The notes under the pieces are model-generated. The model worked only from the letters and a program-made list of their open reading frames with translations, did no database searches and was not told the DNA's origin. A stretch of DNA of 47,289 bases from assembly GCA_017962545.1 (NCBI GenBank), contig JAGCVD010000001.1:1-47289 (forward strand), given 5' to 3'. Every line of letters starts with the position of its first letter. The stretch's first letter is position 1. The translations under genes were made by a program, and so were the position numbers. The DNA is from Bacteroidales bacterium (GTDB lineage Bacteria > Bacteroidota > Bacteroidia > Bacteroidales > P3). Positions 563 through 44,308 of the stretch are shown piece by piece.

Positions 563-611
563 AAAGAGTATAAAGTTTAAGGTTTAAGGATTCTATTTCT
601 TGATTCTTAAT
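563..611 (+). repeat. Seven contiguous heptads between atpE and atpF
   Basis: The 49 bases divide exactly into 7-mers: four A/G-rich units ending TTAAGGT and TTAAGGA, then three units TTCTATT, TCTTGAT and TCTTAAT that read as similar purine-rich heptads on the other strand. The array fills the space right up to the atpF start. It belongs to the short-period repeat family described in the findings. Confidence 0.5.
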
Positions 612-612
612 T

Positions 613-1113
613 ATGAATAATCCCCTAATTAACCCCGGCCTGGGTACCTTTGTGTGGATGCTCGTGTCGTTCGGCATTCTGGCCTTCATCCTCATCAAGT
701 TCGGCTGGCCGATGATTCTCAAGAGTCTGAAGAGCCGTGAGGAGGCCATCGCCAACTCGCTCAACGAGGCTGCCAAGGCCCGCGAAGAGATGAAGCACCT
801 GGTGGCACACAACGAGGAGTTGCTACGCCAGGCCAAGATGGAGCGCGACGAGATGTTGCGCAACGCCCGTCTGGCCAGCGACCAGATAGTCGAAGAGGCC
901 CGCGCCAAAGCATCGGCCGAGGCCGACCGTATCGTCGAGAGTGCCCGCGAGAACATCAACTATGAGAAGCTCAAGGCTATGACCGAACTGAAGAACCAGA
1001 TTGCCAACCTCAGCATCGAGATTGCCGAGAAGCTCATCCGTGCCGAACTGGAGGACAAGAGCAAGGCCGATGCCCTGATTCAGAAAGAACTGGAACTGGC
1101 GAAGCTGAATTGA
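613..1113 (+). CDS. atpF: ATP synthase F0 subunit b
   Basis: The 166-residue protein is the peripheral stalk that holds F1 against the rotor. It has one N-terminal membrane helix (about 12-33, WMLVSFGILAFILIKF) followed by a long charged helix rich in Ala, Glu, Lys and Arg that should form the right-handed coiled coil, ending in the delta-binding segment. Length is normal for the family. ATG at 613 immediately follows the heptad array. It lies in the atpE-F-H-A-G cluster, 28 bases before atpH. Confidence 0.96.
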   Translation: MNNPLINPGLGTFVWMLVSFGILAFILIKFGWPMILKSLKSREEAIANSLNEAAKAREEMKHLVAHNEELLRQAKMERDEMLRNARLASDQIVEEARAKASAEADRIVESARENINYEKLKAMTELKNQIANLSIEIAEKLIRAELEDKSKADALIQKELELAKLN

Positions 1114-1141
1114 GTGGTTAAGTAGACAGTAGTTAAGACGA

Positions 1142-1699
1142 ATGAACAACTATCGTATCAATATCAACTACGCGAAGGCGCTCTTCATGCTGTCTGCCGA
1201 CCGCAGCGTCCTCGACACAGTGGCCGAGGATATGCGGCTGGTGAGCCGTGTGGTGTCCGAAAACCGCGAGTTGAACGTGGTCTTCGCCAATCCGACGGTG
1301 CGTTACGACAAGAAGACCGCCATCGTCGAAGAACTCTTCGGCGGCACTGTGAGTGAAGAGACGCTGGCCTTCCTGCGCTTCGTGGTGAGGAAGAACCGCT
1401 CCGTCAACCTGCGCGGCATCAGCGAGGCCTATCTGTCGCTCTATCGCGAGAGCAAGGGTGTTGTGCTCGGTGAGTTGGTGACACATCAGGAGACCGACGA
1501 CAGCGCCAAAGAGTTCGTGCGCCGTCTCATCGAGGAGTACACTGGCAAGCAGGTCGAGTTGCACACCGCCACCGACGTCCACATGCTTGGTGGCTTCAAG
1601 ATGGAGTTCGACCACAACATGTACGATGCGCGCCTACGTACCAAGATACTGAAGCTCCGCAAGGAGTTTGCCAAGAACGATTACGAAAGTAAATTGTAA
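1142..1699 (+). CDS. atpH: ATP synthase F1 subunit delta
   Basis: The 185-residue protein links the b stalk to the top of the alpha3-beta3 head. It begins [17 protein letters not shown], matching the conserved N-terminal start where Tyr-Ala-x-Ala-Leu is typical. The C-terminal [19 protein letters not shown] corresponds to the family signature usually read as LIGG...DGS(I/V)R. It ends 5 bases before atpA, in the usual bacterial F-H-A-G gene order. Confidence 0.95.
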
Positions 1700-1704
1700 C
1701 GAAT

Positions 1705-3282
1705 ATGTCAGATATTAAACCTGCCGAAGTATCGGCAATATTGAAGAAACAACTGGCCGACGTCAACCTCGATGTCGAGCTTGAGGAGGTAGGCACGGTG
1801 CTCACCGTCGGCGACGGCATTGCTCGTGTCTATGGCCTCAACAACGCCCAGAGCGGCGAACTTGTGGAGTTCGACAGTGGCGACCAGGGCATCGTGCAGA
1901 ACCTCGAGGAGGACAACGTCGGCGTGGTGATGCTCGGCGAGATGACCACCGTCAACGAGGGGGACACCGTGAAGCGCACCAAGCGCATTGCCTCACTGCC
2001 TGTCGGCGAAGGTCTGCTGGGACGTGTCATCAACACCATCGGCCAGCCTATCGACGGCAAGGGCCCCATTGAGGGTGAAGTGTTCCCCATGCCCATCGAG
2101 CGTAAGGCTCCCGGCGTCATCTTCCGTCAACCCGTCGACCAGCCTCTGCAGACGGGTATCAAAGCCATCGACTCGATGATTCCCATCGGTCGCGGCCAGC
2201 GCGAGCTCATCATCGGCGACCGCCAGACCGGCAAGACAGCTATTGCCATCGACACCATCATCAACCAGAAGAACAACTACGACGCCGGCGACCCTGTGTA
2301 TTGCATTTATGTAGCCTGCGGCCAGAAGGGCTCTACGGTGGCCAACCTGGTGAAGACCCTCGACGAGAAAGGAGCTATGGATTACACCATCGTCGTCGCC
2401 GCCACGGCGTCGGACCCCGCGGCCATGCAGTTCTACGCCCCCTTCGCGGGTGCCGCCATCGGTGAGTATTTCCGTGACACGGGTCGCAACGCCCTGGTTA
2501 TCTATGACGACCTCTCAAAGCAGGCCGTGGCCTACCGCGAGGTGTCGCTGCTGCTCCGTCGTCCGCCGGGACGCGAGGCTTACCCTGGCGATGTGTTCTA
2601 CCTGCACAGCCGTCTGCTGGAGCGCGCCGCGCGTATCATCCAGAACGACCAGATTGCTGCGCAGATGAACGACCTACCCGCCTCGTTGCAGGGCAAGGTG
2701 CGTGGTGGCGGCTCGCTGACGGCACTGCCCATCATCGAGACACAGGCTGGCGACGTGTCGGCCTACATTCCCACCAACGTCATCTCTATCACCGACGGCC
2801 AGATATTCCTTGAGACCAACCTCTTCAACAGCGGCGTGCGCCCCGCCATCAATGTGGGTATCTCGGTCAGCCGTGTGGGTGGCAAGGCGCAGATCAAGAG
2901 TATGAAGAAGATTGCTGGTACGTTGAAGATGGACCAGGCACAGTATCGCGAGTTGGAGGCTTTCTCCAAGTTCGGTAGCGACCTCGATGCCGCCACCAAG
3001 GCGGTGCTCGACAAAGGTGCACGCAACGTGGAGGTTCTGAAACAGCCGCAGTACAGTCCTATGCCTGTCGAGGAACAGGTGGCTATTATCTTCTGTGGCA
3101 CTAATGGTCTGCTGCAGAAAGTGGCCGTCGACAAGGTGCGCGACTTCGAGAAGGCTTTCCTCTTCCTCATGAAGCAGCAGCACGCCGACATACTGGCCAA
3201 CCTGCGCGCCGGCAAGTTGATTGACAGCGACCTGGCCACTATGAAAGAACTGGCATTAGACACCGCTGAAAGATACAAATAA
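1705..3282 (+). CDS. atpA: ATP synthase F1 subunit alpha
   Basis: The 525-residue non-catalytic nucleotide-binding subunit of F1. The beta-barrel domain (about 25-95) leads to the P-loop GDRQTGKT at 171-178, Walker B aspartates D268-D269 in VIYDDLSKQ, the [20 protein letters not shown] signature (287-306), and the arginine finger R390 in SVSRVGG. Length is slightly above the usual 500-515. The stop codon overlaps the atpG start by one base (TAATG), consistent with coupled translation. Confidence 0.98.
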
Positions 3283-4151
3283 TGGCAAACCTCAAAGAAG
3301 TCCGCACACGCATCGCGTCGGTGAGTTCCACGCAGCAGATTACCTCGGCAATGAAGATGGTTTCTGCCGCCAAGTTCCGTCGTGCGCAGAACGCCATCAT
3401 AGGCATGCGTCCTTATGCGGCTCAGCTGAACGAGATTATCGCCGACATTGACACCGGCGACGGTGTACAGACACCTTATCACGCCGTGCGCGAGGTGAAG
3501 ACAGTGGTATTGGTGGTGGTGACCTCCAACAAAGGTCTTTGTGGTGCTTTCAACAGCAATGTCCTCAAGTTGGCGCAGCAGCGAATCGATCACTATCGCT
3601 CCGAGCAGGTGTCCATCCGTATTGTTGCCATCGGCAAGAAGGCTTCCGAGTTGCTGGCGCGGCAGAAAGACCTGCAGGTCGGTAGTTATGATACCCTGCT
3701 TGACGCCCCAGCTTTCGATGCTGTGGCCACCTTGGCCGATACGCTGATGGACGACTTCGCCGAAAAGCGCATCGACCGTGTGGAGATTGTCTACAACCAA
3801 TTCAAGAACTCGCTGTCGCAGGTGTTCTCCGATGAGCAATGGCTGCCGATAGTCCCTAAGGACGTTAAGGCCTCTAAGGTCATTAAGAATAATGATTATA
3901 TCTTCGAGCCTTCCAAGGAAGAGATACTGCGTGAGATGATACCCCTCACGTTGCGCAGCACCTTCTACCGAGTGGTGCTTGACTCACTGGCTGCCGAGCA
4001 TGGCGCTCGTATGACGGCCATGCAGAAGGCTACCGACAACGCCACCGAACTCCTCAAGGACTTGCGGCTGAGTTACAACAAAGCGCGACAGGCTTCCATC
4101 ACCAACGAGATTATCGAGATTGTCAGCGGCTCCGAAGCCCTGAAAGGTTAA
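3282..4151 (+). CDS. atpG: ATP synthase F1 subunit gamma
   Basis: The 289-residue central shaft. The N-terminal helix carries the conserved R(T/I)xSVxxTxxITxAMKMV pattern (about 9-28), and the C-terminal helix ends in NKARQASITNEIIEIVSG. Both helices form the coiled coil inside alpha3-beta3. Residues 192-203 are a lysine-periodic stretch encoded by four 9-base DNA repeats (3855-3890) within the globular part. The gene ends the cluster; a strong terminator follows 16 bases after the stop. Subunits beta and epsilon are not nearby. Confidence 0.97.
   Translation: MANLKEVRTRIASVSSTQQITSAMKMVSAAKFRRAQNAIIGMRPYAAQLNEIIADIDTGDGVQTPYHAVREVKTVVLVVVTSNKGLCGAFNSNVLKLAQQRIDHYRSEQVSIRIVAIGKKASELLARQKDLQVGSYDTLLDAPAFDAVATLADTLMDDFAEKRIDRVEIVYNQFKNSLSQVFSDEQWLPIVPKDVKASKVIKNNDYIFEPSKEEILREMIPLTLRSTFYRVVLDSLAAEHGARMTAMQKATDNATELLKDLRLSYNKARQASITNEIIEIVSGSEALKG
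3855..3890 (+). repeat. Four 9-bp units inside atpG
   Basis: Units CCTAAGGAC, GTTAAGGCC, TCTAAGGTC and ATTAAGAAT lie end to end and in frame, encoding x-K-x triplets (PKDVKASKVIKN). The same TAAGG-centred 9-bp unit occurs in the ABC-F gene at 44009-44053, and TTAAGG heptads occur at 563-611. Confidence 0.5.
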
Positions 4152-4167
4152 ACAAGAACTAACGTCA

Positions 4168-4200
4168 GACACCGATGTTGTTATCGGTGTCTTTTTTTTT
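4168..4200 (+). terminator. Intrinsic terminator of the atp cluster
   Basis: A perfect 9-bp stem (4168-4176 with 4183-4191), 6-base loop and nine T residues. It ends only 6 bases before the ATG of the first C10 protease gene, leaving no room for a promoter after it. Confidence 0.93.
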
Positions 4201-4206
4201 AATGAA

Positions 4207-8402: not shown

Positions 8403-8423
8403 AAAACAAAAATACACAACAAT

Positions 8424-9689
8424 ATGGAAAAGAAACAGAACTACACCATCCCCATCATCGTCATGTTCCTGCTGTTCTTCATGATAGCTTTCGTGACTAA
8501 TTTTGCAGGCTCGATGGGTGTCATTGTGAAGAATCAATTCGGCACCAGCAACGCTATCGCGCAACTGGGCACCTTGGCCAATTTCATTGCCTACGCCTGT
8601 ATGGGCATCCCCGCGGGCATTATTCTGCGGCGCAAGGGTTATAAGTTCACCTCGCTGTTGGCCGTCACCGTAGGCCTCATCGGTGTGGGAGTGCAGTTCC
8701 TCAGCGGCTACGTTGAGAGTTTCGCCGTCTATGTGGCCGGCGCCCTGGTGGCTGGCTTCTCCATGTGCCTGCTCAATATTGTGGTGAACCCCATGCTTAA
8801 CACTTTGGGCGGTGGCGGCAACCGCGGCAACCAGCTCATCCAGTGGGGCGGCACCATCAACAGCACCGGCGGCACGCTGGCGCCCATCCTGCTGGGTTAC
8901 CTCATCGGCGGCGCCGTCGACAAGGCCAGTGTCAGTGACGCTGCTCCCGCCATGATTATCGCCATGGCTATCTTCGCTGTGGCCTTTGTGGTCATCATGC
9001 TCACCCGTATCCCTGAGCCGCATCTGGAGAAAGCGGAAGAAGGAAAACAGAAAACGGAAAAAGGGAAATATTCCCCACTCAGTTTCAGACACTTTGTGCT
9101 GGGCGCCGTGGCCATCTTCTTCTACGTGGGTGTCGAAGTGGGTATCCCTAACACCGCCAATCTCTATATGACCACCTCCACCGACGGCGGCGGTCTCGGC
9201 CTCGGCGCCGACTTGGCAGGCTGGTTCATCGGTGCCTACTGGTTCCTTATGCTCTGCGGCCGTTTCATCGGGGGCTTGCTCGGCGGCAAGGTGTCGTCGA
9301 AAGCCATGCTGAGCACCACGGCCATGATAGCCATCGCCTTCCTGCTGTGCCTGATACTGATTCCTTCCACGGTGACGGTGCACCTGCATGGTGCCGACGT
9401 GCCGTTGAAGATAGCCTTCGCCACCCTCTGTGGCCTCTGCACCTCGGTGATGTGGGGCGCCATCTTCAACCTCTCGGCCGAGGGACTGGGCAAGTACACC
9501 CCCATGGCCAGTGGCATTTTTATGACCCTCGTCTGCGGTGGCGGCATCATGCCCTTCCTCCAGAACCTTATCGCCGATGGCGTGGGCTATGTGGGCAGCT
9601 ACTGGATTGTCGTGGCGGGCTTCGCCTACATCCTCTTCTACGCCCTCGTGGGCTCGAAGAATGTAAATAAGGATATCCCTGTAGAGTAG
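8424..9689 (+). CDS. MFS transporter, FucP/FHS sugar-symporter type
   Basis: The 421-residue protein has about 12 membrane helices. The NPMLNTLGGGGNRGNQLIQW segment (about 130-149) and a first helix with FVTNFAGSMGV resemble the fucose/glucose-galactose:H+ symporter family, but the substrate cannot be told. The central cytoplasmic loop (about 200-215) is lysine/glutamate-rich and encoded by a heptad repeat (9033-9067). It lies 21 bases after the second protease gene with no terminator between, so cotranscription is likely. Confidence 0.75.
   Translation: MEKKQNYTIPIIVMFLLFFMIAFVTNFAGSMGVIVKNQFGTSNAIAQLGTLANFIAYACMGIPAGIILRRKGYKFTSLLAVTVGLIGVGVQFLSGYVESFAVYVAGALVAGFSMCLLNIVVNPMLNTLGGGGNRGNQLIQWGGTINSTGGTLAPILLGYLIGGAVDKASVSDAAPAMIIAMAIFAVAFVVIMLTRIPEPHLEKAEEGKQKTEKGKYSPLSFRHFVLGAVAIFFYVGVEVGIPNTANLYMTTSTDGGGLGLGADLAGWFIGAYWFLMLCGRFIGGLLGGKVSSKAMLSTTAMIAIAFLLCLILIPSTVTVHLHGADVPLKIAFATLCGLCTSVMWGAIFNLSAEGLGKYTPMASGIFMTLVCGGGIMPFLQNLIADGVGYVGSYWIVVAGFAYILFYALVGSKNVNKDIPVE
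9033..9067 (+). repeat. Five heptads in the MFS central loop
   Basis: Consecutive 7-mers GCGGAAG, AAGGAAA, ACAGAAA, ACGGAAA and AAGGGAA, all inside the coding sequence. Because 7 is not a multiple of 3 the array is read in shifting phase, giving mixed Lys, Glu, Gly and Gln. It lies in the loop between the two six-helix halves, a place tolerant of insertions. Confidence 0.45.
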
Positions 9690-9710
9690 TCTACCGTTTC
9701 TCCGACTATT

Positions 9711-9768
9711 CTTTGGCATTTCTTTGGTATTTCTTTGGTTTTTTCCAAAGAAATACCAAAGAAATGCC
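9711..9768. repeat. 11-bp-period repeat forming a perfect 24-bp hairpin
   Basis: CTTTGG recurs at 9711, 9722 and 9733, exactly 11 bases apart, and the inverse CCAAAG at 9745 and 9756. Bases 9715-9738 pair perfectly with 9745-9768 around a loop of six T. It may act as a terminator or 3'-end hairpin for the MFS transcript, though no T run follows. The unit TTCTTTGG recurs at 20753-20798. Confidence 0.8.
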
Positions 9769-9819
9769 TTTAATTAACTAAAAAACAGGTCTTTTTTTCA
9801 CCAATTTGTAAAAAAGTTG

Positions 9820-9827
9820 TATCTTTG
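9820..9827 (+). promoter_or_regulatory. Bacteroidetes -7 box for rpsA
   Basis: TATCTTTG matches the -7 consensus. Transcription would start near 9834, giving an untranslated leader of about 100 bases before rpsA. The -33 region is T-rich without a clear TTTG at the expected spacing. Confidence 0.7.
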
Positions 9828-9835
9828 CATTTCCG

Positions 9836-11699: not shown

Positions 11700-11724
11700 A
11701 ACCTCCTCTGTTTAGGAAATCTGC

Positions 11725-20707: not shown

Positions 20708-20752
20708 ATAATTTTCTTACCACCAGCAGTAAGCGATAGGTGTTTACTGGCT

Positions 20753-20798
20753 GTTCTTCGGTTGTTCTTTGGGAACAACCGAAGAACAACCGAAGAAA
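20753..20798. repeat. 11-bp-period repeat hairpin in a divergent promoter region
   Basis: TTCTTCGG (20754) and TTCTTTGG (20765) lie 11 bases apart. The inverse CCGAAG recurs at 20779 and 20790, again 11 apart. Bases 20753-20767 pair perfectly with 20773-20787. The unit TTCTTYGG plus three bases matches the hairpin at 9711-9768, although spacer bases differ. It lies between two divergent promoters, so it cannot be a terminator for either neighbour. Confidence 0.75.
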
Positions 20799-26406: not shown

Positions 26407-28233
26407 ATGATGCATGGAGTGAAAAGGAGTGCAGAAGGAGTGAAATGGAGTGAAAGGACAATAGCCTTGTCCGGTGCATTTGTCTTTTCACTCCCTCTCA
26501 CTTCCTTTCTTTTCCTTTCACTTCTTTTTTCCATCCTTCCCCTCCAGGCGCAGGATGTGAAACAGGGGGACAAGGCTGCCTATGAGAAGGCTATGGCTTG
26601 TTACGGGAAAAGGCAGTACCGTGATGCGGCGCAGCAGTTGCGGCGCCTTGCAGGCCGCAACCCGCGGTCGGCCGATGTACAGTTCTGGCTCGGCATGACG
26701 GCCGTCAAAGATGGCTTCAATGCCACCGCCATACGACGCTACTTCACTCGTTGTATAGAAATCAGCCCTGACTACCCCGATGCGCTGGCGCACTACTATA
26801 TGGCCGTCATCCATTACACTGATGACCGTTTCGACGATGCCGTTGCCGAGCTTGACCGCTACTTTCTGAGGGTCAATGGTGCTGACAATGCCGCTTGGAT
26901 GGCTGTGTACGAAGAGGCCTCCAACTACCTGTATTGGTCGCAGTTCTTGGCCGGGGCTATGCTCAACAAAGCGCCTTTCGACCCGCAGCCTGTAGAAGGC
27001 GTCAGCTCGCGTCATAACGAGATGCTACCTTATCTCAGCCTCGACGGACAGACATTCTATTACCTCCGTGAGATGCCCGCCAGTAACGAGCGTACCTTCT
27101 ATTCCCGTGAGCTCGAACAGAAGCAGTGGCTCCTCTGCAGCAGCAAGCGCCTCAACGATACATCCTTCAGTAAAGGGGTTGCCCTGTCGGCGCCGTTCAA
27201 CAGCGGCGACCCTGAGGGTAGCGTTACCCTCACTGCCGACGGCACGGAGCTCTACTATTCCATCATCAGAAACAAGGCCGGCTATGCCAATAGCGACATC
27301 TATTGTGTGCGCCGTGTTGGTGGCGTTTGGCAGCAGCCCGAGGCGTTGGGGACACAAGTCAACGGCGACCGCAGTTGGGAATCGCAGCCCACCGTCAGCG
27401 CCGATGGCCAGACGCTGGTTTTCGCCTCCAACCGCAAAGGCGGCTTGGGGGGTATCGACCTCTGGCGGTGCCATCGGTTGAAGAACGGCGACTGGAGCAG
27501 GGCGGAGAACCTGGGTTCCTCCATCAACACCGCAGGTAACGAGAAAGCACCCTTCTTGGCTGCCGACGGTCGCACGCTATATTTCCTCAGCGACGGCTGG
27601 CAGGGCTTCGGCGGCTATGATGTCTATTTTGCCAACCTCGCCGACGTCTACGGCAACCGTCCCACCAACCTCGGTCTACCCATCAACACCGAGGGAGACG
27701 AGCTCAGTCTCGGCGTCACAGCTGACGGTCGTCAGGCTTACTACGCGGCCAAGCAGGAGGGCGCTCGTAGCAGCGATGTCTACCTCTTCGACCTGTACCC
27801 TGCCGCACGTCCCGAGGCCATGCGTCTCTGTCGCATGCACATGGAGCCGGCTCACCGCGACACATTGCTGATGCTCCCTGTGCAGGAGTCTACAGCAGTG
27901 CTCTTCGACGGTCCGTTGCCCACCATCCTGTGTGGCAGGGCCAGAGACCTCGACAACAAGACGGTGGCGCAGGCCGACACCGTTTCTCCGATGAACCTTG
28001 CCGAGCCGCTGGTGCTCGACGCCTTGGCGGCATGGTTGGTGGAACATCCCCGTGTACATCTGTCAATCGAATGCCCCAAGGTGGCCGACGCGCAGGCCGC
28101 CCTTGCGCGCCTGCGTGAGAAAGGCCTGCGCTCCGAGCGTTTCAGCTACCGTGGCGGCACTGACATCTCCCGTCCCCAAATCCGCTTATTATTATCCTCC
28201 AATCACCGACCACCGACCACCGACCACCAATGA
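26407..28233 (+). CDS. PorE-like TPR / PD40 propeller protein
   Basis: The 608-residue protein has a hydrophobic export signal (about 23-46, ending PLQAQ), TPR-like helices (about 50-180), a beta-propeller with PD40 blades (LSLDGQTFYYL, LTADGTELYYS, VSADGQTLVFASNRKGG, LAADGRTLYFLSDG), and a degenerate OmpA-like end (about 535-590). This order recalls PorE, a T9SS anchor at the cell wall, but no lipobox is present and the OmpA part is weak. DNA repeats encode most of the signal peptide and the last ten residues. The stop overlaps the next ATG (ATGA). The start could be 26407 or 26410, or a downstream GTG. Confidence 0.75.
   Translation: MMHGVKRSAEGVKWSERTIALSGAFVFSLPLTSFLFLSLLFSILPLQAQDVKQGDKAAYEKAMACYGKRQYRDAAQQLRRLAGRNPRSADVQFWLGMTAVKDGFNATAIRRYFTRCIEISPDYPDALAHYYMAVIHYTDDRFDDAVAELDRYFLRVNGADNAAWMAVYEEASNYLYWSQFLAGAMLNKAPFDPQPVEGVSSRHNEMLPYLSLDGQTFYYLREMPASNERTFYSRELEQKQWLLCSSKRLNDTSFSKGVALSAPFNSGDPEGSVTLTADGTELYYSIIRNKAGYANSDIYCVRRVGGVWQQPEALGTQVNGDRSWESQPTVSADGQTLVFASNRKGGLGGIDLWRCHRLKNGDWSRAENLGSSINTAGNEKAPFLAADGRTLYFLSDGWQGFGGYDVYFANLADVYGNRPTNLGLPINTEGDELSLGVTADGRQAYYAAKQEGARSSDVYLFDLYPAARPEAMRLCRMHMEPAHRDTLLMLPVQESTAVLFDGPLPTILCGRARDLDNKTVAQADTVSPMNLAEPLVLDALAAWLVEHPRVHLSIECPKVADAQAALARLREKGLRSERFSYRGGTDISRPQIRLLLSSNHRPPTTDHQ
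26416..26526. repeat. 10-bp-period opposed repeat encoding a signal peptide
   Basis: GGAGTG-type units start at 26416, 26426, 26437 and 26447, with a GGAC unit at 26456. Opposed CACTCC/CACTTC-type units start at 26489, 26499, 26509 and 26519, exactly 10 apart. The arms can pair imperfectly; GGACAA (26456-26461) and TTGTCC (26467-26472) form the apex. The second arm reads as Phe, Ser, Leu and Pro codons and supplies residues 27-40 of the PorE-like protein. Confidence 0.7.
28203..28230 (+). repeat. Four heptads at the PorE-like/ABC exporter junction
   Basis: TCACCGA, CCACCGA, CCACCGA and CCACCAA run to the first base of the next ATG. They encode the last residues (NHRPPTTDHQ) of the upstream protein and form the immediate upstream context of the exporter start codon. 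Confidence 0.65.
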
Positions 28234-32899: not shown

Positions 32900-32954
32900 C
32901 GAACTTTTTCTGATATAGAAGAAAAAAGTTCGTTTTTTTAATATTTTTTATACT

Positions 32955-34046
32955 TTATCGTTTGACATCCAGTGCGTCGCGAAGGCCGTTGGCCAGCAGC
33001 ATAAAGGCCAGGACGATGAACATGATGGCCAGGCCGGGTAGCAGGGCCAGGTAGGCGCTGTCGAGGAGTATGTACCCGTAGTTGTCCTTGACCATCATGC
33101 CCCACGACGGCATGGGAGGCTGCACGCCTATGCCGAGGAAGCTCAGGCCCGCCTCCAGTAGTATGGCACTGGCAAAGTTGGAGGCCGCCACGACGACCAC
33201 GGCGCCTAGACAGTTGGGCAGAATATGACGGAAGATGGTGCGGAAGGTGCTGTAGCCGAGGGCACGGGTGGCCTCGACATATTCTTTTTCTTTGATGCTG
33301 AGCACCTCGCCACGTACCACACGCGCTATGTCGACCCACATCGTCAATCCTACGGCCACGAAGATTTGCCAGAAGCCCTTACCCAGGGCGAAGGTGATGG
33401 CAATGACCAGCAGCACTGTGGGGATGGACCACACGACGTTGATGAGCCACAGAATGACATTGTCGACCCAGCCGCCATGGTACGCCGCTAGGGCGCCGAG
33501 GGTGATGCCGATGAGTAGCGCTATGGCGATGGCGATGAAGCCTACGCTGAGGCTCACGCGCGAGCCTATCATCAGCATGCTCAGCACGTCGCGTCCGTAA
33601 GCGTCGGTGCCGAGGAGGAATGTGCGCCGCTCGACACGTGCCTCGTGGGCCGACACTGTTATAGGTTCGCCGTTGTAAGGTGTGGCGGTGATGCTGTCGC
33701 GCGTGTATTCATATTTATACATAGGCGTGGCGGTATAGGGTAGAGGTTCTCCGTTTACCATACGGCGAAGGAGTGACGAGTGATGAGAGGTGAGAGATGA
33801 GTCAGATGTGTAGAGGAAGGTGGCTTTGCTGCCAGGTTTGAGGGTGGCGAGTTCGAGGTACTGCTGGTTGCAGAAAGGTGTGGGGTCGGGGGTGATGAGA
33901 TAGCCCAGCACCGCCACCAAGGCGAAGAACCCTATGACGACAAGACTGGCCACTGACAGGGGGTTGCGGCGGAATCGCCGCCACGCCATGCGGTCGAGGG
34001 AGTGACCCGCCAGGTCGGCATCAGAATGTTTTTTGAAAAGGTGCAT
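32955..34046 (-). CDS. ABC transporter permease, OppC/DppC type
   Basis: The 363-residue inner-membrane permease has an N-terminal helix with RFRRNPLSVASLVV typical of OppC, and the conserved EAA loop (YVEATRALGYSTFRTIFRHI, about 258-277). FLLGTDAYGRDV precedes the helical core, as in the family. The periplasmic segment between the first helix and the core (about 60-145) is longer than usual and includes a Ser/His-rich stretch encoded by five heptads (33770-33804). No partner OppB, OppA or ATPase genes lie in the window. It ends the mutA to permease minus operon. Confidence 0.85.
   Translation of the reverse strand: MHLFKKHSDADLAGHSLDRMAWRRFRRNPLSVASLVVIGFFALVAVLGYLITPDPTPFCNQQYLELATLKPGSKATFLYTSDSSLTSHHSSLLRRMVNGEPLPYTATPMYKYEYTRDSITATPYNGEPITVSAHEARVERRTFLLGTDAYGRDVLSMLMIGSRVSLSVGFIAIAIALLIGITLGALAAYHGGWVDNVILWLINVVWSIPTVLLVIAITFALGKGFWQIFVAVGLTMWVDIARVVRGEVLSIKEKEYVEATRALGYSTFRTIFRHILPNCLGAVVVVAASNFASAILLEAGLSFLGIGVQPPMPSWGMMVKDNYGYILLDSAYLALLPGLAIMFIVLAFMLLANGLRDALDVKR
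33770..33804. repeat. Five heptads inside the OppC-type permease gene
   Basis: In plus orientation: GGAGTGA, CGAGTGA, TGAGAGG, TGAGAGA, TGAGTCA, end to end. They encode the Ser/His/Thr-rich part of a periplasmic loop. GGAGTGA also opens the units at 26416-26450. Confidence 0.55.
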
Positions 34047-34070
34047 AGGGGCTTTAGAGTCTTTTGGTTA

Positions 34071-34388: not shown

Positions 34389-34408
34389 TGCTTGAGTCTT
34401 TAAGGTCG

Positions 34409-34828: not shown

Positions 34829-34844
34829 ATTCTTTTTCTTCTGG

Positions 34845-34944
34845 GGAGTTCAAGGAGTTTAGGGAGTTGCAAGGAGTTCAAGACAAATGGGCCAGCCGAG
34901 GTATTGTCCTGAACTACTTGAACTACTTGAACTACTTGGACTCC
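34845..34944. repeat. 9-bp-period opposed repeat between the LptF/G and sufE genes
   Basis: GGAGTT starts at 34845, 34854, 34863 and 34873 on one arm. GAACTACTT units start at 34911, 34920 and 34929 on the other, ending in GGACTCC at 34938, exactly 9 apart. The two arms of about 40 bases are near-complementary, with GACAA/TTGTC at the apex. It fills nearly all of the 118-base gap. Confidence 0.78.
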
Positions 34945-34946
34945 AT

Positions 34947-36032
34947 TTATTTTGGTGCTTTGTATATCAGGTACACCGCCGCCACGCCGAAGACCAGCTG
35001 AGGAAGCAACACGGCCATGAAGGGTGACAGGTTGCCGCCGATGGCGAAGACAGTGGTTACTTTCATAAATACTATGAATCCGAAGGCCAGCGTGATGCCT
35101 ATGGCCAGGTGCATGCCTATGCCGCCACGCGTCTTGCGAGACGCTATGGCTACGCCGATGAAGGTCATCACGATGATAGCCAGTGGGTTCAGTAGACGTT
35201 GGTTGAGCTCTATCTGGGCTTCCTTGACGGTGCCGGTGCCGCGAATCTTTTCGCGCTCGATATGTTGCAGCAATGCCGGTGTCGGCATGGTCTCTATGCG
35301 TTTCGACAGCAGGTCAAAGTCCTCAGGCGTAATGCCATAGTCCACGGTGATGAAGCCTTCTCGGCTGAGGGTCTCGTTGCCGTGGCTGTCGATGGTGCGT
35401 AGGGTGTAGTTGGTGCTGCGCCACAGGTGTGTATTGGTGTCGTAGACGATGATGTCGGCGGTCTCGCGCCGTGTCATGTGCCCCTTGGCGTCCATGGTCT
35501 CGCGGCAGAACTTGAATCCGCGTTGCTGCTTGACGTCATAACTTTCGGCATACACCTGTACGCCGGGTTCGGATTGGAAGTGCAGGTTGCTGTAGTAGCT
35601 GGTGGCCTTGGTTTTGACGTAATGCTCCTCGAAGTCTATCAGATGTCTGTTCGACAGGGGGATAATGAAGTTGCCCAGCAGCAGCACCACCACAGCCACT
35701 ATCAGTGAACCGTAGAGGTAAGGCCGCAGCATGCGGTGGTAGCTGATGCCCGACCCCAGGATGGCGATAATCTCGGTGTTGCCCGCCATCTTCGAGGTGA
35801 AGAAAAGCACCGCAATGAAGATGAACAACGGGCTGTAGAGATTCACGAAGCCCGGGATGAAGTTGAAGTAATAGTCCGTCACCACCTGGCCGAAGGTGGC
35901 GTGGTGGGAGATGAACTTGTCGAGTTTCTCGCTGACGTCGAAGGTGATGACGATGACGATAATCAGAGCCAGTGCCAGCAAGAATGTCTTGAGGTATTTG
36001 CTCAGGATATATCTGTCAAGTCGTTTCAGCAT
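34947..36032 (-). CDS. LptF/LptG family permease
   Basis: The 361-residue protein has six membrane helices with a periplasmic beta domain between helices 3 and 4. The start MLKRLDRYILSKYLKTF and the segment LIIPL-like NFIIPLSNRHLIDFEE (about 121-136) are typical of the YjgP/YjgQ family, which extracts lipopolysaccharide from the inner membrane to the Lpt bridge. F or G cannot be told apart here. Its ATG follows the mutA stop with no bases between, so translation is coupled. Confidence 0.9.
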   Translation of the reverse strand: MLKRLDRYILSKYLKTFLLALALIIVIVITFDVSEKLDKFISHHATFGQVVTDYYFNFIPGFVNLYSPLFIFIAVLFFTSKMAGNTEIIAILGSGISYHRMLRPYLYGSLIVAVVVLLLGNFIIPLSNRHLIDFEEHYVKTKATSYYSNLHFQSEPGVQVYAESYDVKQQRGFKFCRETMDAKGHMTRRETADIIVYDTNTHLWRSTNYTLRTIDSHGNETLSREGFITVDYGITPEDFDLLSKRIETMPTPALLQHIEREKIRGTGTVKEAQIELNQRLLNPLAIIVMTFIGVAIASRKTRGGIGMHLAIGITLAFGFIVFMKVTTVFAIGGNLSPFMAVLLPQLVFGVAAVYLIYKAPK

Positions 36033-37886: not shown

Positions 37887-37923
37887 TATATTGTATCGTT
37901 TGTTTGCGTGTATTTGTAAAAAG

Positions 37924-37931
37924 CAAAGATA
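37924..37931 (-). promoter_or_regulatory. -7 box of the mutA operon
   Basis: TATCTTTG on the minus strand, 38 bases before the mutA ATG at 37886. Confidence 0.75.
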
Positions 37932-38098
37932 CAAAAAAAATCCATATTTTAAAGGAAATGTTGTAAAAAGGATCCTCTTTGCTTTATTTTTTTTCGAATT
38001 GACGCCTTCGTGTCTCCGCCTTCTTTCGGATCATCATTAGAGTTTTGTTGGAGTTGGTGCGGGGAAATCGCTGAGAGTGAAGGGTGTTGATAAATGGG

Positions 38099-38130
38099 TT
38101 TGCAGGAGCCGTAATTTCTTCGTATCTTTG
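38099..38130 (+). promoter_or_regulatory. Promoter of the AddA/UvrD-type gene
   Basis: TTTG (38099-38102), a 20-base spacer and TATCTTTG (38123-38130). The leader is about 10 bases. The remaining divergent space (37932-38098) holds nothing else I recognise. Confidence 0.82.
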
Positions 38131-38147
38131 CGGACAAATATTACGCC

Positions 38148-41100: not shown

Positions 41101-41486
41101 ACCATGCTTCTGACATCGATGCCGCGGTGCAGCGTATGGCTGCCGATGAACAGATGGACGAGCCGATGCGAGAAAATCTTGAGGCGCTGGCCTACAGCGT
41201 GGTGACGCATGCTGATACGGAACGTTTCTTCCGTGAGGAATATGATGTCAAAACGGAGTGTGACCTGTGTGACGCCGAAGGCTTGTGCCGTCCCGACCGT
41301 GTGGTGCTCACGGGGAATGAGACCTGGGTGGTCGACTTCAAGACAGGGCGCGAGATGGACGAGAAACACGACCGACAGGTGCAGCGTTATTGTCGCGCCA
41401 TGGAGGAGATGGGCTATCCGCAGGTCAGCGGTTGGCTTATCTATCTGCTGCCCGAGGTGCATGTCCGACCCGTGAAGAAATGTTAA
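38148..41486 (+). CDS. UvrD/AddA-type helicase with C-terminal nuclease domain
   Basis: The 1112-residue superfamily 1A helicase has Walker A AAAGSGKT (16-23), FTNKAAGEMKSRI (motif Ia), DEFQDTS (motif II) and LLTIHKAKGLEAPVV (motif V region). The C-terminus has RPDRVV with Asp1050 and VDFKTG with D1063 and K1065, the PD-(D/E)xK nuclease pattern of AddA. Double-strand break resection is the likely role. The usual partner AddB is not in the window. It stands alone with its own promoter. Confidence 0.88.
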   Translation: MTAVQKSHNPFVICRAAAGSGKTFTLVKEYLKLAMAVPSAAVRRDRVAFERQLRRQFAGILAITFTNKAAGEMKSRIMEYLEQIMRYGIDAKRSRLGVPLLKALNDMPCYQDMPLEESDLRWMAEVVHSAILHQYSDLSVCTIDSFMHRIVRTFAHDLNRPVNFEVNVEQDEMIQQAVSQLMSQAGMSEKEDLTRVLRAFAESRMEDAKGYDIERELTRLADQLFTEGADKHLGQLKEMDLGDYITLHKALTAANRRFEGEAMACGQAVMALLARKGVEESDCASGRTGYYGFFRGLAGGKIRPLTPTVADTFESGKLYSSKCSEATMDVIDDLTDELYPLYERARDMLGVADGRTPDEGGALRDYNTRGILLKNLYSMALLGQLKKQLDLYCKENEVVHLSEFNKMINSIVCDQPAPFIYERLGNRYHHFLIDEFQDTSVLQWHNLVPLLENGVSQRYESLVVGDGKQAIYRFRQGDVRQFVALPHVENMPSFHGKTLDVEGNYSHEPLIVNYRTASSVVNFNNAFFTWLLNCKKLPLADNMLAQQIYVGAPDDKGHAELWQYLPENKDVPEGHVDVTFVDGDADAINERIRQIIVQLVTRQGYRQSDIMVLGRRKKELDSVSTYLQHHSDELKIEVSSNESFFLVRSHAVMAVVSALRLLYDPSDRVAAADLLQRLYNLGLVASSHRDAFLEKGPIDVARLLRDEHRGFDVKPDYLVSLDLYDCCEELVRELHLDGLDTAYIGSLLGRVAAFVARRHQGVAEFLKWFDDNATADLDVSKHRQLSAASPEGVDAVRLLTIHKAKGLEAPVVICPFLSQQNFGYKLWVTLDKKAGVGGKLPAAFVELSRDGTSQFDTVRDEERRLDEVDQLNLLYVAMTRPQEQLFVVCPTPPKTSKDTLSYARLIKEFMDSEHPDLGDADFCHVCKEEEDENEKPKEMALHQMSFAEWTKKVQVASPAERALTPLQEESVRLGNVVHDLMAQVYHASDIDAAVQRMAADEQMDEPMRENLEALAYSVVTHADTERFFREEYDVKTECDLCDAEGLCRPDRVVLTGNETWVVDFKTGREMDEKHDRQVQRYCRAMEEMGYPQVSGWLIYLLPEVHVRPVKKC

Positions 41487-41512
41487 AATTTGAAGTTTTT
41501 CACATTTTCTTG

Positions 41513-41542
41513 TTGGTAATTCAGTTTTTTTTTGTAATTTAG
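41513..41542 (+). promoter_or_regulatory. Promoter of tonB
   Basis: TTG (41513-41515), a 19-base spacer and TAATTTAG (41535-41542), one mismatch from the -7 consensus. Confidence 0.5.
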
Positions 41543-41605
41543 CGGTGTGAAAATAGGGCTCAATGGGCTCTTGAAAGTAGAAATAAACAATTAAAAAACA
41601 ATAAT

Positions 41606-42292
41606 ATGGAACTGAAGAAAAATCCGAAAGCCGACCTTGAAAACCGTCGGGGACTCTATCTGGAGATAGGCCTGGTGGTGACTTTGGTGGCTGCACTGGT
41701 GGCCTTCAATGTGAAGACTTACGACAAGGAGGAGAAGGTGCAGTTCGAACGTCAGGCTAGTGAGGAACAGGAGGAGATTATCATCCAGACGCAGCAGGAA
41801 GAGCTGCCGCCACCCCCTCCCCCCGAGACTCCTGAGGTGACCACCGAGTTTGAAGTGGTCGAGGATGATGCCGAGATTAAGACAGAGCTGGTTGTCAATG
41901 CCGAGGTTACCGACGACACCAAGAACATTGAGATTACTCCGGTGAAGATTGAAGATGAAGAGGAGGAGGAGGATGTGCAGATTTTCACTGTCGTGGAGAA
42001 TGACCCTGAATTTCCCGGTGGCATGGAAGCCCTGTACAAGTACCTGCGTGAGAACATCAAGTACCCGCAGCTGGCACGTGACAACAACATCACCGGCAAG
42101 GTGTATGTCACTTTCGTGGTGGAGCGCGACGGTTCGATTGCCAATCCTCGCGTGCTGAAAGATATCGGCGGCGGTTGCGGTGCCGAGGCTATCCGTGTGG
42201 TGAAGTCCATGCCTAAGTGGACGCCCGGTAAGCAGCGCGGCAAATCAGTCCGTGTGCAGTTCAACCTGCCCGTGAGCTTCAACCTGCAATAA
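41606..42292 (+). CDS. tonB: TonB family energy transducer
   Basis: The 228-residue protein has one membrane helix (about 18-36), a Pro-rich stretch (LPPPPPPETPE), an acidic periplasmic linker (70-130) and a TonB C-terminal domain (about 138-228) with PEFPGGMEALYKYLRENIKY and the WTPGKQRGKSVRV end. It couples proton-motive force to outer-membrane receptors. No ExbB or ExbD genes lie beside it, and several TonB paralogues per genome are usual in this phylum. Confidence 0.9.
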   Translation: MELKKNPKADLENRRGLYLEIGLVVTLVAALVAFNVKTYDKEEKVQFERQASEEQEEIIIQTQQEELPPPPPPETPEVTTEFEVVEDDAEIKTELVVNAEVTDDTKNIEITPVKIEDEEEEEDVQIFTVVENDPEFPGGMEALYKYLRENIKYPQLARDNNITGKVYVTFVVERDGSIANPRVLKDIGGGCGAEAIRVVKSMPKWTPGKQRGKSVRVQFNLPVSFNLQ

Positions 42293-42357
42293 AAGGTTAA
42301 AGTGTAAAGGTTAAAGAGGTTGACGCGTCTTTTGAGGTGTCAACCTCTTTAGTCTTT
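42292..42357. repeat. Heptad repeat hairpin after tonB
   Basis: AAAGGTT, AAAGTGT, AAAGGTT and AAAGAGG (42292-42319) lie end to end, then a perfect 12-bp stem AAAGAGGTTGAC (42313-42324) pairs with GTCAACCTCTTT (42339-42350). A further opposed heptad, AGTCTTT, follows at 42351-42357. It may serve as the tonB terminator, though only short T runs follow. Confidence 0.7.
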
Positions 42358-42400
42358 ATTAGTGTAACTTAACTACTAACCTGTAGCCTTACTATATCCA

Positions 42401-44308
42401 TTGATAAGTGTAAACAATCTCTCTGTACAGTTCACAGGCACTGACCTTTTCAAGAACGTTACGTTCAACATTGCCGACCACGACAGGGTCGGCCTTGTTG
42501 GTATGAATGGGGCCGGTAAGTCGACCCTGTTGAAGGTGCTTTGTGGCTGGCAGGAGCCCGAAAGCGGCACGTTGGTGATTGCCAGCGGCCAGACGGTGGG
42601 CTACCTGCCGCAGGAGATGGTGCCCGACGCAGTGGGTAGCGTCATAGAGGAGGCTTTGACGGCTTTCGGCCATTTGGACGAACTGGAACGGGAGCAGGAG
42701 CGCATGATGCAGGAGATTGCCGAGCGCACGGACTATGAGAGTGCCGAATATACACGGTTGTTGGAGCGTCACAACGAGGTGACGGAGCGCTTGGCTGTGC
42801 TGGGTGGCGGCCGACGTCGCGAGGCCGCCGAGAAGGTACTGCTGGGCTTAGGCTTTCGGCACGACGACTTTGAACGGCCAGTGGCGGTGTTCAGCGGTGG
42901 CTGGCAGATGCGTGTAGAATTGGCCAAGTTGCTGCTGCGGCATCCCGACTTTCTATTGCTCGACGAGCCTACCAACCACCTCGATATCGAGTCGATACAG
43001 TGGCTGGAGAACTACCTGCAGGCCTATACCGGCGCCGTGGTGCTGGTGAGTCATGACCGTACTTTCCTTGACAACATCACCAAACGCACCATTGAGATTA
43101 CCGCCGGACGCATCTACGATTACAAGTGCCCCTATTCGGAGTATGTGGTGCAGATGCAGGAACGGCGCGCCAGTCAGATGGCACAACTGACAAACCAGCA
43201 ACGGCAGGTGGCGCAGATAGAGGCATTTATCGAGCGCTTCCGCTACAAGGCTACCAAAGCCAAACAGGTGCAGAGCCGAGTGAAGATGTTGGAGAGAATG
43301 GAGAGGATAACGGTCGATGAGGTGAGCACCGAGAGCATCCATTTCCAGTTCCCGCCGGCACCGCACAGCGGCAAGATAGTGGTGGAGACGAAAGGGTTGG
43401 GCAAGGCCTACGGCGAGCATCAAGTGTTCGACGGGGTTGACATGTTGCTCACGTCGGGCAGGAAAGTGGCCTTTGTGGGCCGCAATGGCGAAGGCAAGAC
43501 GACACTGGCCAAGATACTGGTGGGCGACATCAACGACTATACCGGCACCTACCGACTTGGACAAGGCGTCGTGTTGGGATACTATGCACAGAACCAAGCG
43601 GCTATGCTCAATCTGGACAAGACCGTGTTCGAGACCATTGACGATATCGCGCAAGGTGATATACGTCCCAAGATACGCACCATATTGGGCAGTTTCCTCT
43701 TCTCGGATGACGATATAGATAAAAAGGTCAAGGTGCTCAGCGGCGGCGAGAAAGCACGGCTGGCATTAGCAAAATTGCTGCTGACACCCAGCAATTTATT
43801 AGTGCTTGACGAGCCTACCAATCACCTGGATATGAACTCCAAGGATATTCTGAAGAATGCCCTGTTGCAGTATACTGGCACACTGATTGTGGTAAGCCAC
43901 GACCGTGACTTCCTCAGCGGTCTCACCGACGAACTCTATGAGTTCCGCGACGGGGCGGTGCATGAGTTCAAAGGGGATATCATGGAATTTCTGGAGCAGG
44001 CCAAAAACCTTAAGGATCTTAAGGTTCCGAAGGACTTTAAAGACCCTAAAGCCCATTCCTCATCCAAGCAGGCCTATGAGCAGAATAAGGAGCGTGAGCG
44101 AGAGCGTAGAAAATTGCAGAACGTGGTGAAACAGAAAGAGGAAGAGATAGAGGCTCTGGAACAGCAACTGTCCGAGAAAGATGCCCAGTTGGCCGGCGGG
44201 CAGGCTCAGGAAACCTCGTTCTATGAAGAATACCAGCGGCTGAAGAAGGATCTGGAAAGAAAGATGGAAGAGTGGGAGGAGGCAGTGATTGTTGCAGAGG
44301 GAGCATAA
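42401..44308 (+). CDS. ABC-F family ATPase (TTG start)
   Basis: The 635-residue protein has two ABC ATPase domains and no membrane helices. Walker A motifs are GMNGAGKST (34-42) and GRNGEGKT (360-367); signatures are FSGGWQMR and LSGGEKAR. ABC-F proteins act on the ribosome. The conserved family start ISVNNLSVQF follows directly on a TTG at 42401, and no ATG or GTG fits, so TTG is the start. A Lys-rich linker (537-551, LKDLKVPKDFKDPKA) is encoded by 9-bp repeats, followed by a coiled-coil C-terminus. mutS follows 29 bases later. Confidence 0.9.
   Translation: MISVNNLSVQFTGTDLFKNVTFNIADHDRVGLVGMNGAGKSTLLKVLCGWQEPESGTLVIASGQTVGYLPQEMVPDAVGSVIEEALTAFGHLDELEREQERMMQEIAERTDYESAEYTRLLERHNEVTERLAVLGGGRRREAAEKVLLGLGFRHDDFERPVAVFSGGWQMRVELAKLLLRHPDFLLLDEPTNHLDIESIQWLENYLQAYTGAVVLVSHDRTFLDNITKRTIEITAGRIYDYKCPYSEYVVQMQERRASQMAQLTNQQRQVAQIEAFIERFRYKATKAKQVQSRVKMLERMERITVDEVSTESIHFQFPPAPHSGKIVVETKGLGKAYGEHQVFDGVDMLLTSGRKVAFVGRNGEGKTTLAKILVGDINDYTGTYRLGQGVVLGYYAQNQAAMLNLDKTVFETIDDIAQGDIRPKIRTILGSFLFSDDDIDKKVKVLSGGEKARLALAKLLLTPSNLLVLDEPTNHLDMNSKDILKNALLQYTGTLIVVSHDRDFLSGLTDELYEFRDGAVHEFKGDIMEFLEQAKNLKDLKVPKDFKDPKAHSSSKQAYEQNKERERERRKLQNVVKQKEEEIEALEQQLSEKDAQLAGGQAQETSFYEEYQRLKKDLERKMEEWEEAVIVAEGA
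44009..44053 (+). repeat. Five 9-bp units inside the ABC-F gene
   Basis: CTTAAGGAT, CTTAAGGTT, CCGAAGGAC, TTTAAAGAC and CCTAAAGCC lie in frame, encoding x-K-D/V/A triplets in the linker before the coiled coil. The unit is nearly the same as in atpG at 3855-3890. Confidence 0.6.

Follow-up and report, generated by a model that had tools for sequence, protein, structure and literature searches.

Hairpin-forming repeats with short-period tandem arms in the genome of an uncultured gut Bacteroidales bacterium

INTRODUCTION

The STRRs of cyanobacteria are heptad tandem repeats, as are the 7-bp arrays considered here; we know of no palindromic cores or 11-bp families among them. To our knowledge, the origin of REP-like families, their uniformity within a genome, and their change between species are unsettled. 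Because gene order is conserved among the related species compared here, repeats can be matched site by site, which makes it possible to distinguish insertion, growth of arms, and their overwriting from one another. In-frame copies within ORFs, one of which appears to supply a new protein start, make these elements a visible source of protein change.

REPs tagged with GTAG or CGTC are palindromic, often species specific, and mostly intergenic, and they sometimes lie within genes, including repair genes (PMC3733652). The elements described here are likewise short dispersed palindromes, some in species-specific families, located between and sometimes in genes, but they differ from REPs in that their arms consist of tandem 7- to 12-bp units and no Rayt association was found in the genus. 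REP palindromes span 20 to 40 bp, whereas the 11-bp core of this genome is about 48 bp, with outer units in addition, and elements with a GACAAATG core are longer still. Inspection of 22 palindromes gave no common outer tetranucleotide, that is, no unpaired end tag of the GTAG/CGTC type. REPs lie mostly between convergent or unidirectional ORFs, whereas convergent gaps are not preferred here. Like MITEs, the elements are short and dispersed and have inverted repeats.

TAACTGA heptad direct repeats occur in Beggiatoaceae, Cyanobacteria, and five Bacteroidetes (PMC4679880). They are mostly intergenic and share with our arrays the 7-bp tandem organization, a frequent position near start codons, and absence from some close relatives; unlike them, the arrays here have many units, periods of 7 to 12, and shared cores flanked by opposed arms, and a large number lie inside predicted ORFs (PMC4679880). 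BrickBuilt of Porphyromonas gingivalis is also an intergenic MITE of the Bacteroidales with an internal tandem repeat, but it has a 23-bp unit with a leader and a tail, in contrast to the 7- to 12-bp units in opposed arms here (PMC4596501). Borg tandem repeats, from extrachromosomal elements of archaea, are similarly fast evolving, formed independently, and found in intergenic regions and ORFs, but they are direct repeats rather than dispersed hairpin families (PMC9879509). No description of mixed-period tandem-armed palindromes in Bacteroidales was found in openly licensed PubMed Central, which is weak evidence of novelty.

RESULTS AND DISCUSSION

Strong hairpins and weak repeats in the window

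The window is the whole stretch of 47,289 nucleotides analyzed (contig JAGCVD010000001.1). The host of the hairpin repeats is an uncultured gut Bacteroidales genus. The elements are built of 7- to 12-bp units and form hairpins, and some are inserted between or inside genes. A first-pass annotation had listed short-period repeats at no fewer than ten sites as a dispersed family. Several were confirmed by TRF, inverted repeats, or folding, while those at 3855, 9033, 33770, and 44009 are weak and coding (Table 1). TRF, inverted-repeat search, and folding single out four strong hairpins: 9709-9768 (24-bp perfect stem; RNA z -12.5), 20750-20798 (z -8.9), 26416-26526 (z -6.7), and 34845-34944 (z -6.4). 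The repeats are indeed dispersed, of short period, and often palindromic, but they do not make up one family: they vary in unit, in core, and in whether relatives carry them, and several of the listed sites represent coding variation. The GACAA/TTGTC apex ascribed to two sites is real and common to 26416 and 34845. Opposed second arms exist at the strong sites and also at 42292, where the first list had none: here arms at 42305-42329 and 42334-42358 fold with a z of -9.4, and the 7-bp array itself (42292-42319) is weak (TRF score 36). At 28204-28228, with 3.6 exact copies of a 7-bp unit, the opposed arm is absent. An Rfam search at curated gathering scores gave four tRNA matches only (window, L029, L036, and L039), and a known RNA family was rejected as the identity of the hairpins.

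Table 1. Repeat features of the window
Position	Strand	Feature	Context and remarks
563..611		Weak 7-bp array (TTAAGG-like), partial hairpin	Near noise; not conserved in G012
3855..3890	+	Degenerate 9-bp repeat, coding	G012 has a different short repeat there, GAGCACT x2
9033..9067	+	Purine-rich coding repeat	MFS protein gene; strong hairpin absent
9709..9768		Palindrome of 11-bp units (GGTATTTCTTT) with a TTTTTT loop	Between MFS gene and S1-domain gene
20750..20798		11-bp-unit palindrome, unit GGTTGTTCTTC/T	Near 5' end of starch-synthase-domain gene, neighbor divergent
26416..26526		GACAAATG...TATTGTC-core palindrome, 10-bp arms GGAGTGAAAA	In frame, start of PD40/TPR-protein ORF
28190..28229		About 40 extra bases, CACCGAC heptads	Overlaps end of one ORF, directly before next start codon
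33770..33804		Degenerate GAGTGA-like 7-bp repeat	Inside coding stretch variable in G012
34845..34944		GACAAATG...TATTGTC-core palindrome, 9-bp arms GGAGTTCAA / GTAGTTCAA	Between LptF/LptG-family gene and next gene
42292..42400		Additional sequence (about 106 bp); hairpin, 7-bp-like arms (AAAGGTT), GGTTGACGC...GTCAACC core	Between two genes
44009..44053	+	Degenerate 9-bp repeat	Variable coding stretch, by comparison with G012

Among the weaker sites, the 7-bp arrays at 563-611, 9033-9067, and 33770-33804 reached TRF scores of 31 to 34 only, with 9028-9068 scoring 61 as a 21-bp repeat, and TRF at a score of at least 30 gave no row for 3855-3890 and 44009-44053. The coding stretches that hold 3855, 9033, 33770, and 44009 also differ in the nearest relative, G012, and slippage is likely the right explanation for these four.

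Abundance and periods

Arrays of period 6 to 13 number 95 in this genome (444,909 bases surveyed), compared with 0 to 3 in five dinucleotide shuffles, and 57 in 80 loci (950 kb) of other Bacteroidota, compared with 1 to 5. Period 11 is overcounted in the figure for this genome because 15 of the 20 sampled stretches were chosen for holding 11-bp matches. Genomic periodicity, chosen beforehand as the test that could overturn the proposal, is thus far above the shuffled level, and shuffles, control lags, and reversed patterns together rule out chance or composition as the source. All seven genomes of the genus that were sampled carry 138 to 775 arrays per Mb, versus 60 per Mb in the 80 loci. Among exact repeats, lag 7 or lag 11 is the most frequent in six of these seven (tied with 10 in G001), and period 11 is strongly preferred over the control lags 9, 10, 12, and 13. 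The recurrence of lags 7 and 11 would suit a dedicated enzyme that adds units, such as a reverse transcriptase that makes successive copies of one short template; against this, a single genome contains very diverse units, and RVT_1 has no match in this 81%-complete genome. The search for a dispersing enzyme covered the Y1_Tnp and RVT_1 models, neither of which matched here. We rejected a reverse transcriptase as the agent on the RVT_1 result and regard a unit-adding enzyme as highly improbable.

The period-7 arrays comprise many different units within one genome and lie mostly inside predicted ORFs in 24 of 34 cases. TRF hinted that 7-bp arrays share a constant length near 30 bp, but this was not clear in exact runs and was dropped; for enrichment in signal peptides there are examples only, and we make no claim.

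Core families

The core pattern of 9709-9768 has 23 forward and 23 reverse matches in this genome, by our count 23 places, and none in 60 other genomes, the reversed control also giving none. Near-identical cores of this 11-bp family, about 48 bp long and with outer units added, are dispersed over some 20 places. The outer GGCA variant of 9709-9768 is mirrored in both arms; the palindrome at 20750-20798 is a relative yet falls outside the core pattern. The GACAAATG core is more widespread: 17 of the 41 genomes of the genus carry it, with arm units that vary, whereas the control gave no match. Outside the genus, 38 of 148 genomes had one or two matches, which we attribute to chance because control matches were about as common (42 of 148, our count). 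The core patterns tested are therefore confined to one species or genus, and identity of arrays across distant genera, which would have spoken against the proposal, was not seen.

The two GACAAATG elements of the window measure about 100 to 110 bp. Thirty-three of 44 distinct GACAAATG cores have at least one arm with a lag-7-to-12 identity of at least 0.6, a level reached by 2.6% of random 40-mers and hence by about 5% for two arms. Similarity within arms exceeds that between arms in 26 of the 33 (0.70 versus 0.62), a modest excess that is partly built in, as the elements were chosen for periodicity. Units of this family often begin with GTAG, GGAG, or GAAG, repeated and inside the arms.

These families bear directly on ordinary replication slippage, whereby arrays would arise and grow locally at each site and nothing moves. 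The diversity of period-7 units, the opposed arms flagged in only 8 of 44 period-7 arrays (our count), and the coding stretches that hold different repeats in two species are all in its favor. Slippage cannot, however, make near-identical cores at so many dispersed places; GACAAATG cores common to several species, and the attachment of opposed arms to a common core, also speak against it. As a general account it is unlikely, and for the core families it is already unlikely on these grounds.

REP-like mobilization in trans by a Y1/HUH (Rayt) transposase would account for movement. The elements resemble REPs in being palindromic, often species specific, mostly intergenic, and sometimes intragenic (PMC3733652), and 28 of the 41 genomes of the genus have Y1_Tnp. 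The linked Y1/Rayt-like transposase that had been suggested was nevertheless not recovered: PF01797 has no match in this genome (81% complete), and Y1_Tnp occurs in 9 of 17 core-bearing versus 19 of 24 core-free genomes (Fisher P = 0.10), so that a positive association with the core is absent in the genus. Nor are convergent gaps preferred: by simple ORF calls, 11-bp hairpins occupy 0 of 17 convergent, 6 of 42 codirectional, and 7 of 30 divergent gaps in this genome and 9 of 69, 35 of 177, and 18 of 81, respectively, in G012. We consider Rayt mobilization very unlikely. In the one pair of neighboring GACAAATG cores that was read, the enclosed gene was rejected as a transposase, reading by eye as pyrD.

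The same sites in relatives

G012 has 11-bp families of its own; a G012 unit pattern matches 91 times per strand, with more than one match in an element, and nowhere in 40 other genomes, so units are species specific. Four regions are free of arrays in both G012 and a second relative, G010: 34829-34948, a clean absence in each; 42292-42400, where the G010 gap is 11 bp; 28190-28229; and 26416-26526, which has no counterpart. Because two relatives lack them, the arrays at 34845, 42292, 28204, and 26416 are, as judged from these alignments, most simply insertions in this genome. Inspection of two clean empty sites revealed no evident target duplication.

At other sites, one repeat stands in place of another. 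The site of 9709-9768 holds an 11-bp direct array with a different unit in G010 and a palindrome without 11-bp periodicity in G012, and the gap orthologous to 20750-20798 holds a GGTAGTATTAC 11-bp palindrome in G012. The dehydrogenase gene read as pyrD is flanked on both sides by GACAAATG elements here and by ATTACTCGAATT-core elements in G012. By eye, G012 has an 11-bp hairpin of different unit opposite 6 of 8 anchored 11-bp hairpins of this genome; the eight comprise the anchored-palindrome set, with 6 of 7, and L031, a marginal pair read as negative. An automatic test in ORF-defined gaps gave 5 of 6 against a background of 6 of 24 (Fisher P = 0.016), but it is fragile, since thresholds were set after the sites had been seen and four of the five positive pairs lie at the 0.68 cutoff; P becomes 0.14 with the marginal L031 pair as negative and 0.036 with it dropped. 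Only 1 of 7 passed a strict automatic screen, and in the reverse comparison only one of four anchored G012 11-bp elements faces an 11-bp hairpin here. These figures apply to the anchored sites: 7 of 18 own palindromes (11 without a site, about 47% of G012 compared), with 107 of 137 own arrays lacking an anchored site in the 670-kb G012 set and 45 of 56 G012 elements lacking one in the own-genome sample. Six of 10 own GACAAATG cores compared with G012 had no anchored site, and 5 of the 19 lptF loci listed showed a wrong flank; both were left out. From the alignments, the hairpin thus seems to be retained at several sites even as its units are exchanged for others between species. Alignment of orthologous intergenic regions, as the first-pass annotation had advised, uncovered presence/absence and same-site unit change, but several of its listed sites turned out to be coding variation.

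Recurrence of hairpins with other units at some orthologous sites, very stable stems, and the strong preference for period 11 might also reflect selection on RNA or DNA structure (in terminators, hairpins at mRNA ends, or protein-binding sites), with function keeping pairing and period while sequence drifts. Terminators were rejected, as convergent gaps are not preferred, and inspection found no regular T-run after the stem. Many sites are missing in relatives, a G-A mismatch is repeated in the 34845 arms (inspection), and some mixed-family arms are unpaired. Selection for structure is, in our judgment, distinctly unlikely.

Rewriting of arms

Unit identity in the 11-bp elements decays gradually outward: matches per unit from the apex are 10.75, 9.68, 6.14, 5.82, 3.95, and 3.55, against a null of 2.88. 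The gradient could also arise without conversion, if a mobile core of 48 bp had landed within older repeats. Mixed-family clusters account for 3 of 26 in this genome and 16 of 77 in G012, and in one comparison (C41:39992 versus C25:63 and C41:63) the loop is inverted within similar flanks. Our preferred reading, offered tentatively and at slightly less than even confidence, is that the elements are REP/MITE-like nonautonomous hairpins of several families whose arms are rewritten by slippage and template switching. The basic element is a core or apex flanked by opposed arms of tandem 7- to 12-bp units, and copies with the same core are scattered through a genome, some of them missing from the corresponding site in relatives; their dispersing agent is inferred. 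Slippage may duplicate and homogenize units within one arm, while other copies may overwrite arms, first near the apex, with the hairpin as the putative site of gene conversion or template switching. Arms would therefore be uniform within a genome and changed between species, with the period and, at several sites, the hairpin persisting. Among the growth mechanisms proposed earlier (slippage, a Rayt-like transposase, or templated repair), templated rewriting probably fits best; slippage alone does not account for the near-identical cores, and a Rayt-like transposase is not supported.

A bolder version, which we think rather unlikely, is a self-rewriting system in which hairpin sites act as sockets and 11-bp modules are exchanged among dispersed copies from the apex outward, so that a whole genome would switch to a new unit yet retain its period and many of its sites. 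The module would correspond to about one turn of the helix, modules of three families in G012 would be combined on one recurring scaffold, and the driver could be a specific enzyme or replication across hairpins. If true, this would amount to concerted evolution of short dispersed palindromes, which is absent from the REP, MITE, and heptad descriptions compared here.

Short-period repeats in the window and the genus

The repeat phenomenon is real and richer than first described: where the first-pass annotation had seen one dispersed family, the arrays are indeed widespread in the genus but fall into several families over a background of coding variation. The predicted excess over shuffled sequence is upheld, with 95 arrays of period 6 to 13 in 444,909 bases of the source genome (1.95 Mb, 42 contigs, 81% complete, the window being one contig) versus 0 to 3 in five dinucleotide shuffles. 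The comparison set, 80 loci of other Bacteroidota, yielded 57 arrays in 950 kb (shuffles, 1 to 5). The nearest records of the S1 protein are Bacteroidales/Bacteroidetes metagenome assemblies, several from rumen, omasum, and faeces.

Across seven sampled genus genomes there are 138 to 775 short-period arrays per Mb, and in six of them exact repeats recur most often at lag 7 or 11 (a tie with 10 in G001). Period-11 exact runs number 12 to 125 per Mb in six genus genomes, 0 in 80 kb of G021, and 1 per Mb in 75 loci of other Bacteroidota; the source-genome figure is biased upward because 15 of its 20 stretches were picked for holding 11-bp matches, while those of G001, G002, G010, G021, and G023 were picked without regard to repeats.

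Among the window sites first listed, hairpin arrays at four and a heptad array at a fifth were recovered by TRF, inverted-repeat search, and folding (table). The site at 42292 is a hairpin with a weak 7-bp repeat (TRF score, 36) and a second arm that had gone unlisted. Four others, at 3855, 9033, 33770, and 44009, are weak repeats within coding sequence that varies in the nearest relative, G012, as well; 563-611 is close to noise. The five folded hairpins lie 6.4 to 12.5 standard deviations under shuffles.

Coordinates of repeat elements and facing sequence in two relatives (window unless a locus, L, or contig, C, is given)
Position	Feature	G012	G010
9709-9768	11-bp hairpin array	palindrome of another type	11-bp direct array, yet another unit
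20750-20798	11-bp hairpin array	11-bp hairpin, another unit (by eye)	
L029 8904	11-bp hairpin	11-bp hairpin, another unit (by eye)	
L030 9623	11-bp hairpin	11-bp hairpin, another unit (by eye)	
L030 14178	11-bp hairpin	11-bp hairpin, another unit (by eye)	
L040 9062	11-bp hairpin	11-bp hairpin, another unit (by eye)	
L047 13441	11-bp hairpin	11-bp hairpin, another unit (by eye)	
L031 11637	11-bp hairpin	none beside it	
26416-26526	10-bp hairpin array	different, hydrophobic-looking (by reading)	different, hydrophobic-looking (by reading)
28204-28228	heptad array	28190-28229 missing	no heptads at 28190-28229
34845-34944	hairpin array	flanks of 34829-34948 joined, almost nothing between	0 bp
42292-42358	hairpin	flanks of 42292-42400 joined, almost nothing between	11 bp
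L038 3450	7-bp site	7-bp repeats, another unit	
L043 7052	7-bp site	7-bp repeats, another unit	
L038 12634-12786	ATTACTCGAATT-core hairpin between opposed 9-bp GCGAATTTA arrays		
L045:2546-4975	MutS2-like ORF, in-frame array directly before MutS_V domain		
L035:13342-14439	TsaD ORF, in-frame array within		
L029:8984-9589	RuvA ORF, in-frame array after helix-hairpin-helix domain		
26407-28233	PD40/TPR ORF		
G000:C25:1-540, G000:C41:1-528, G000:C41:39930-40075	duplicated flanks, 93-96% identical, around one 48-bp palindrome (source genome)		

Arrays within genes

ORFs hold fewer than their share of arrays, since 58 of the 95 lie mostly inside predicted ORFs that make up 93.6% of the sample (by simple calling, some spurious). 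Several are nonetheless read in frame (table). At its start, the PD40/TPR ORF carries the 26416 palindrome in frame; because the starts of this protein in G012 and G010 are unrelated and hydrophobic-looking, one arm of the palindrome may have been turned into a signal-peptide-like stretch. Other ORFs, examples only, likewise have hydrophobic starts read from arrays.

Repeat families

In the source genome, the core pattern drawn from the 9709-9768 hairpin matches 23 times on the forward and 23 times on the reverse strand, at 23 places; no match occurs in 36 same-genus and 24 same-order genomes. The 20750-20798 hairpin is related but escapes this pattern. Some 48 bp are common to 20 loci, with two units on either side of the loop, in most cases A6 or T6. 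Outward from the apex, unit match falls from 10.75 of 11 to 9.68, 6.14, 5.82, 3.95, and 3.55 (null, 2.88; 22 palindromes and 44 arms, one chance palindrome in L021 kept in). G012 has different 11-bp families, with stems up to 55 bp; the pattern of one gives 91 matches per strand, several per element, and 0 in 40 other genomes. A combined hairpin and lag-11 test was positive in 62 of 367 G012 gaps and 13 of 104 source-genome gaps, versus 0 to 2 at lags 9, 10, 12, and 13 and 0 in mononucleotide-shuffled G012 gaps. In G010 (L231, L241, L243), several 11-bp direct arrays have units of CGGACCATCNC type; most are about 50 bp long, and none is flagged as a hairpin.

The GACAA/TTGTC apex, correctly noted at two sites, is common to 26416 and 34845, and it gave the pattern defining the second family, GACAAATG...TATTGTC. 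This occurs in 17 of 41 genus genomes (control matches, 0); in other genera it matches 38 of 148 genomes, as chance would give (control, 42 of 148). A periodic arm accompanies 33 of the 44 distinct cores read, the expectation at the lags tried (7 to 12 only) being 2.6% of random 40-mers, or about 5% for two arms; some single matches are armless and within coding sequence. Beside lptF, arrays stand in the source genome and in 4 of the 14 congeners whose flank reaches the site (one degenerate); one other has about two units and nine have no array. Each species has its own arm units at this site (GGAGTTCAA, GGAGTACAAA/GGAGTGCAAA, GTAGTTAAA). Within the arms of several elements (L186, L192, L193, L197, L202, L206, and L036 near 6840) are small GC-rich hairpins, for example CGCTTCGCTCG.

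Hairpins with 7-bp arms and TGACGC/GCGTCA-like or GTGGCTTGCGCAG-like cores are present in both the source genome and G012, and G012 has AGTGGGT-armed ones as well. Four 7-bp hairpins of G012 could be placed on G002, G023, or G010, none of which has an array at the position; opposite two of these four, the source genome holds degenerate 9-bp coding repeats. ATTACTCGAATT-core hairpins occur in G012 (L227, L228) as well as in the source genome.

Enzyme and class

The Rayt-like transposase raised as one possible agent finds no support. Neither Y1_Tnp (PF01797) nor the reverse transcriptase model RVT_1 has a match in the source genome (81% complete), and across the genus Y1_Tnp shows no positive association with the core, being found in 9 of 17 core-bearing versus 19 of 24 other genomes (p 0.10, opposite direction). 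In their behavior the repeats resemble REPs and MITEs. None of the four features tested places them in the tagged REP superfamilies.

Same site, different unit

The window and G012 are syntenic, with DNA identity of 68 to 92%. Alignment of orthologous regions, advised at the outset, reveals presence/absence at 28204, 34845, and 42292; with two relatives compared, sites present only in the source genome probably reflect insertion here, less likely loss there. The 11-bp sites differ, mostly in facing another unit.

Of the anchored 11-bp hairpins, 6 of 8 face a G012 11-bp hairpin of another unit by eye, while a strict automatic screen flagged 1 of 7, versus 6 of 7 by eye. In ORF-defined gaps, G012 was positive in 5 of 6 own-positive versus 6 of 24 own-negative cases (Fisher p 0.016), with thresholds fixed after the sites were seen and 4 of the 5 positive pairs at the cut-off; p becomes 0.14 if the marginal L031 pair is called negative and 0.036 if it is dropped. 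In the reverse direction, four G012 11-bp elements could be anchored in the source genome, and one of them has an 11-bp hairpin opposite. On each side of a gene read as pyrD lies a GACAAATG element, both facing ATTACTCGAATT-core elements in G012; anchoring covers 4 of the 10 cores examined, these two and two window sites absent there.

Proposed rewriting of arms

Two 11-bp families are combined in 3 of 26 source-genome clusters, in two of these with one family per arm. Mixed clusters number 16 of 77 in G012; in 9 of the 16, a GGTAGTATTAC stem with both its sides encloses a T- or A-run and is accompanied by a half-arm from another family. One source-genome copy carries an inverted loop between flanks 93 to 94% identical to those of two others. 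In 26 of 33 elements of the GACAAATG family, units are more alike within an arm than across arms; this is no more than supportive, as the elements were chosen for a periodic arm. Taken together, these observations point to slippage inside arms and to copying between elements that would begin at the apex. A 48-bp mobile core that inserted into pre-existing repeats would account for some of these data as well.

The G012 composites (C16 near 38900, C4 near 322979, and others) combine their GGTAGTATTAC stem, around a T- or A-run, with half-arms taken in various combinations from three other 11-bp families. The stems of the C16 and C4 examples are interleaved, and the two hairpins would therefore be mutually exclusive.
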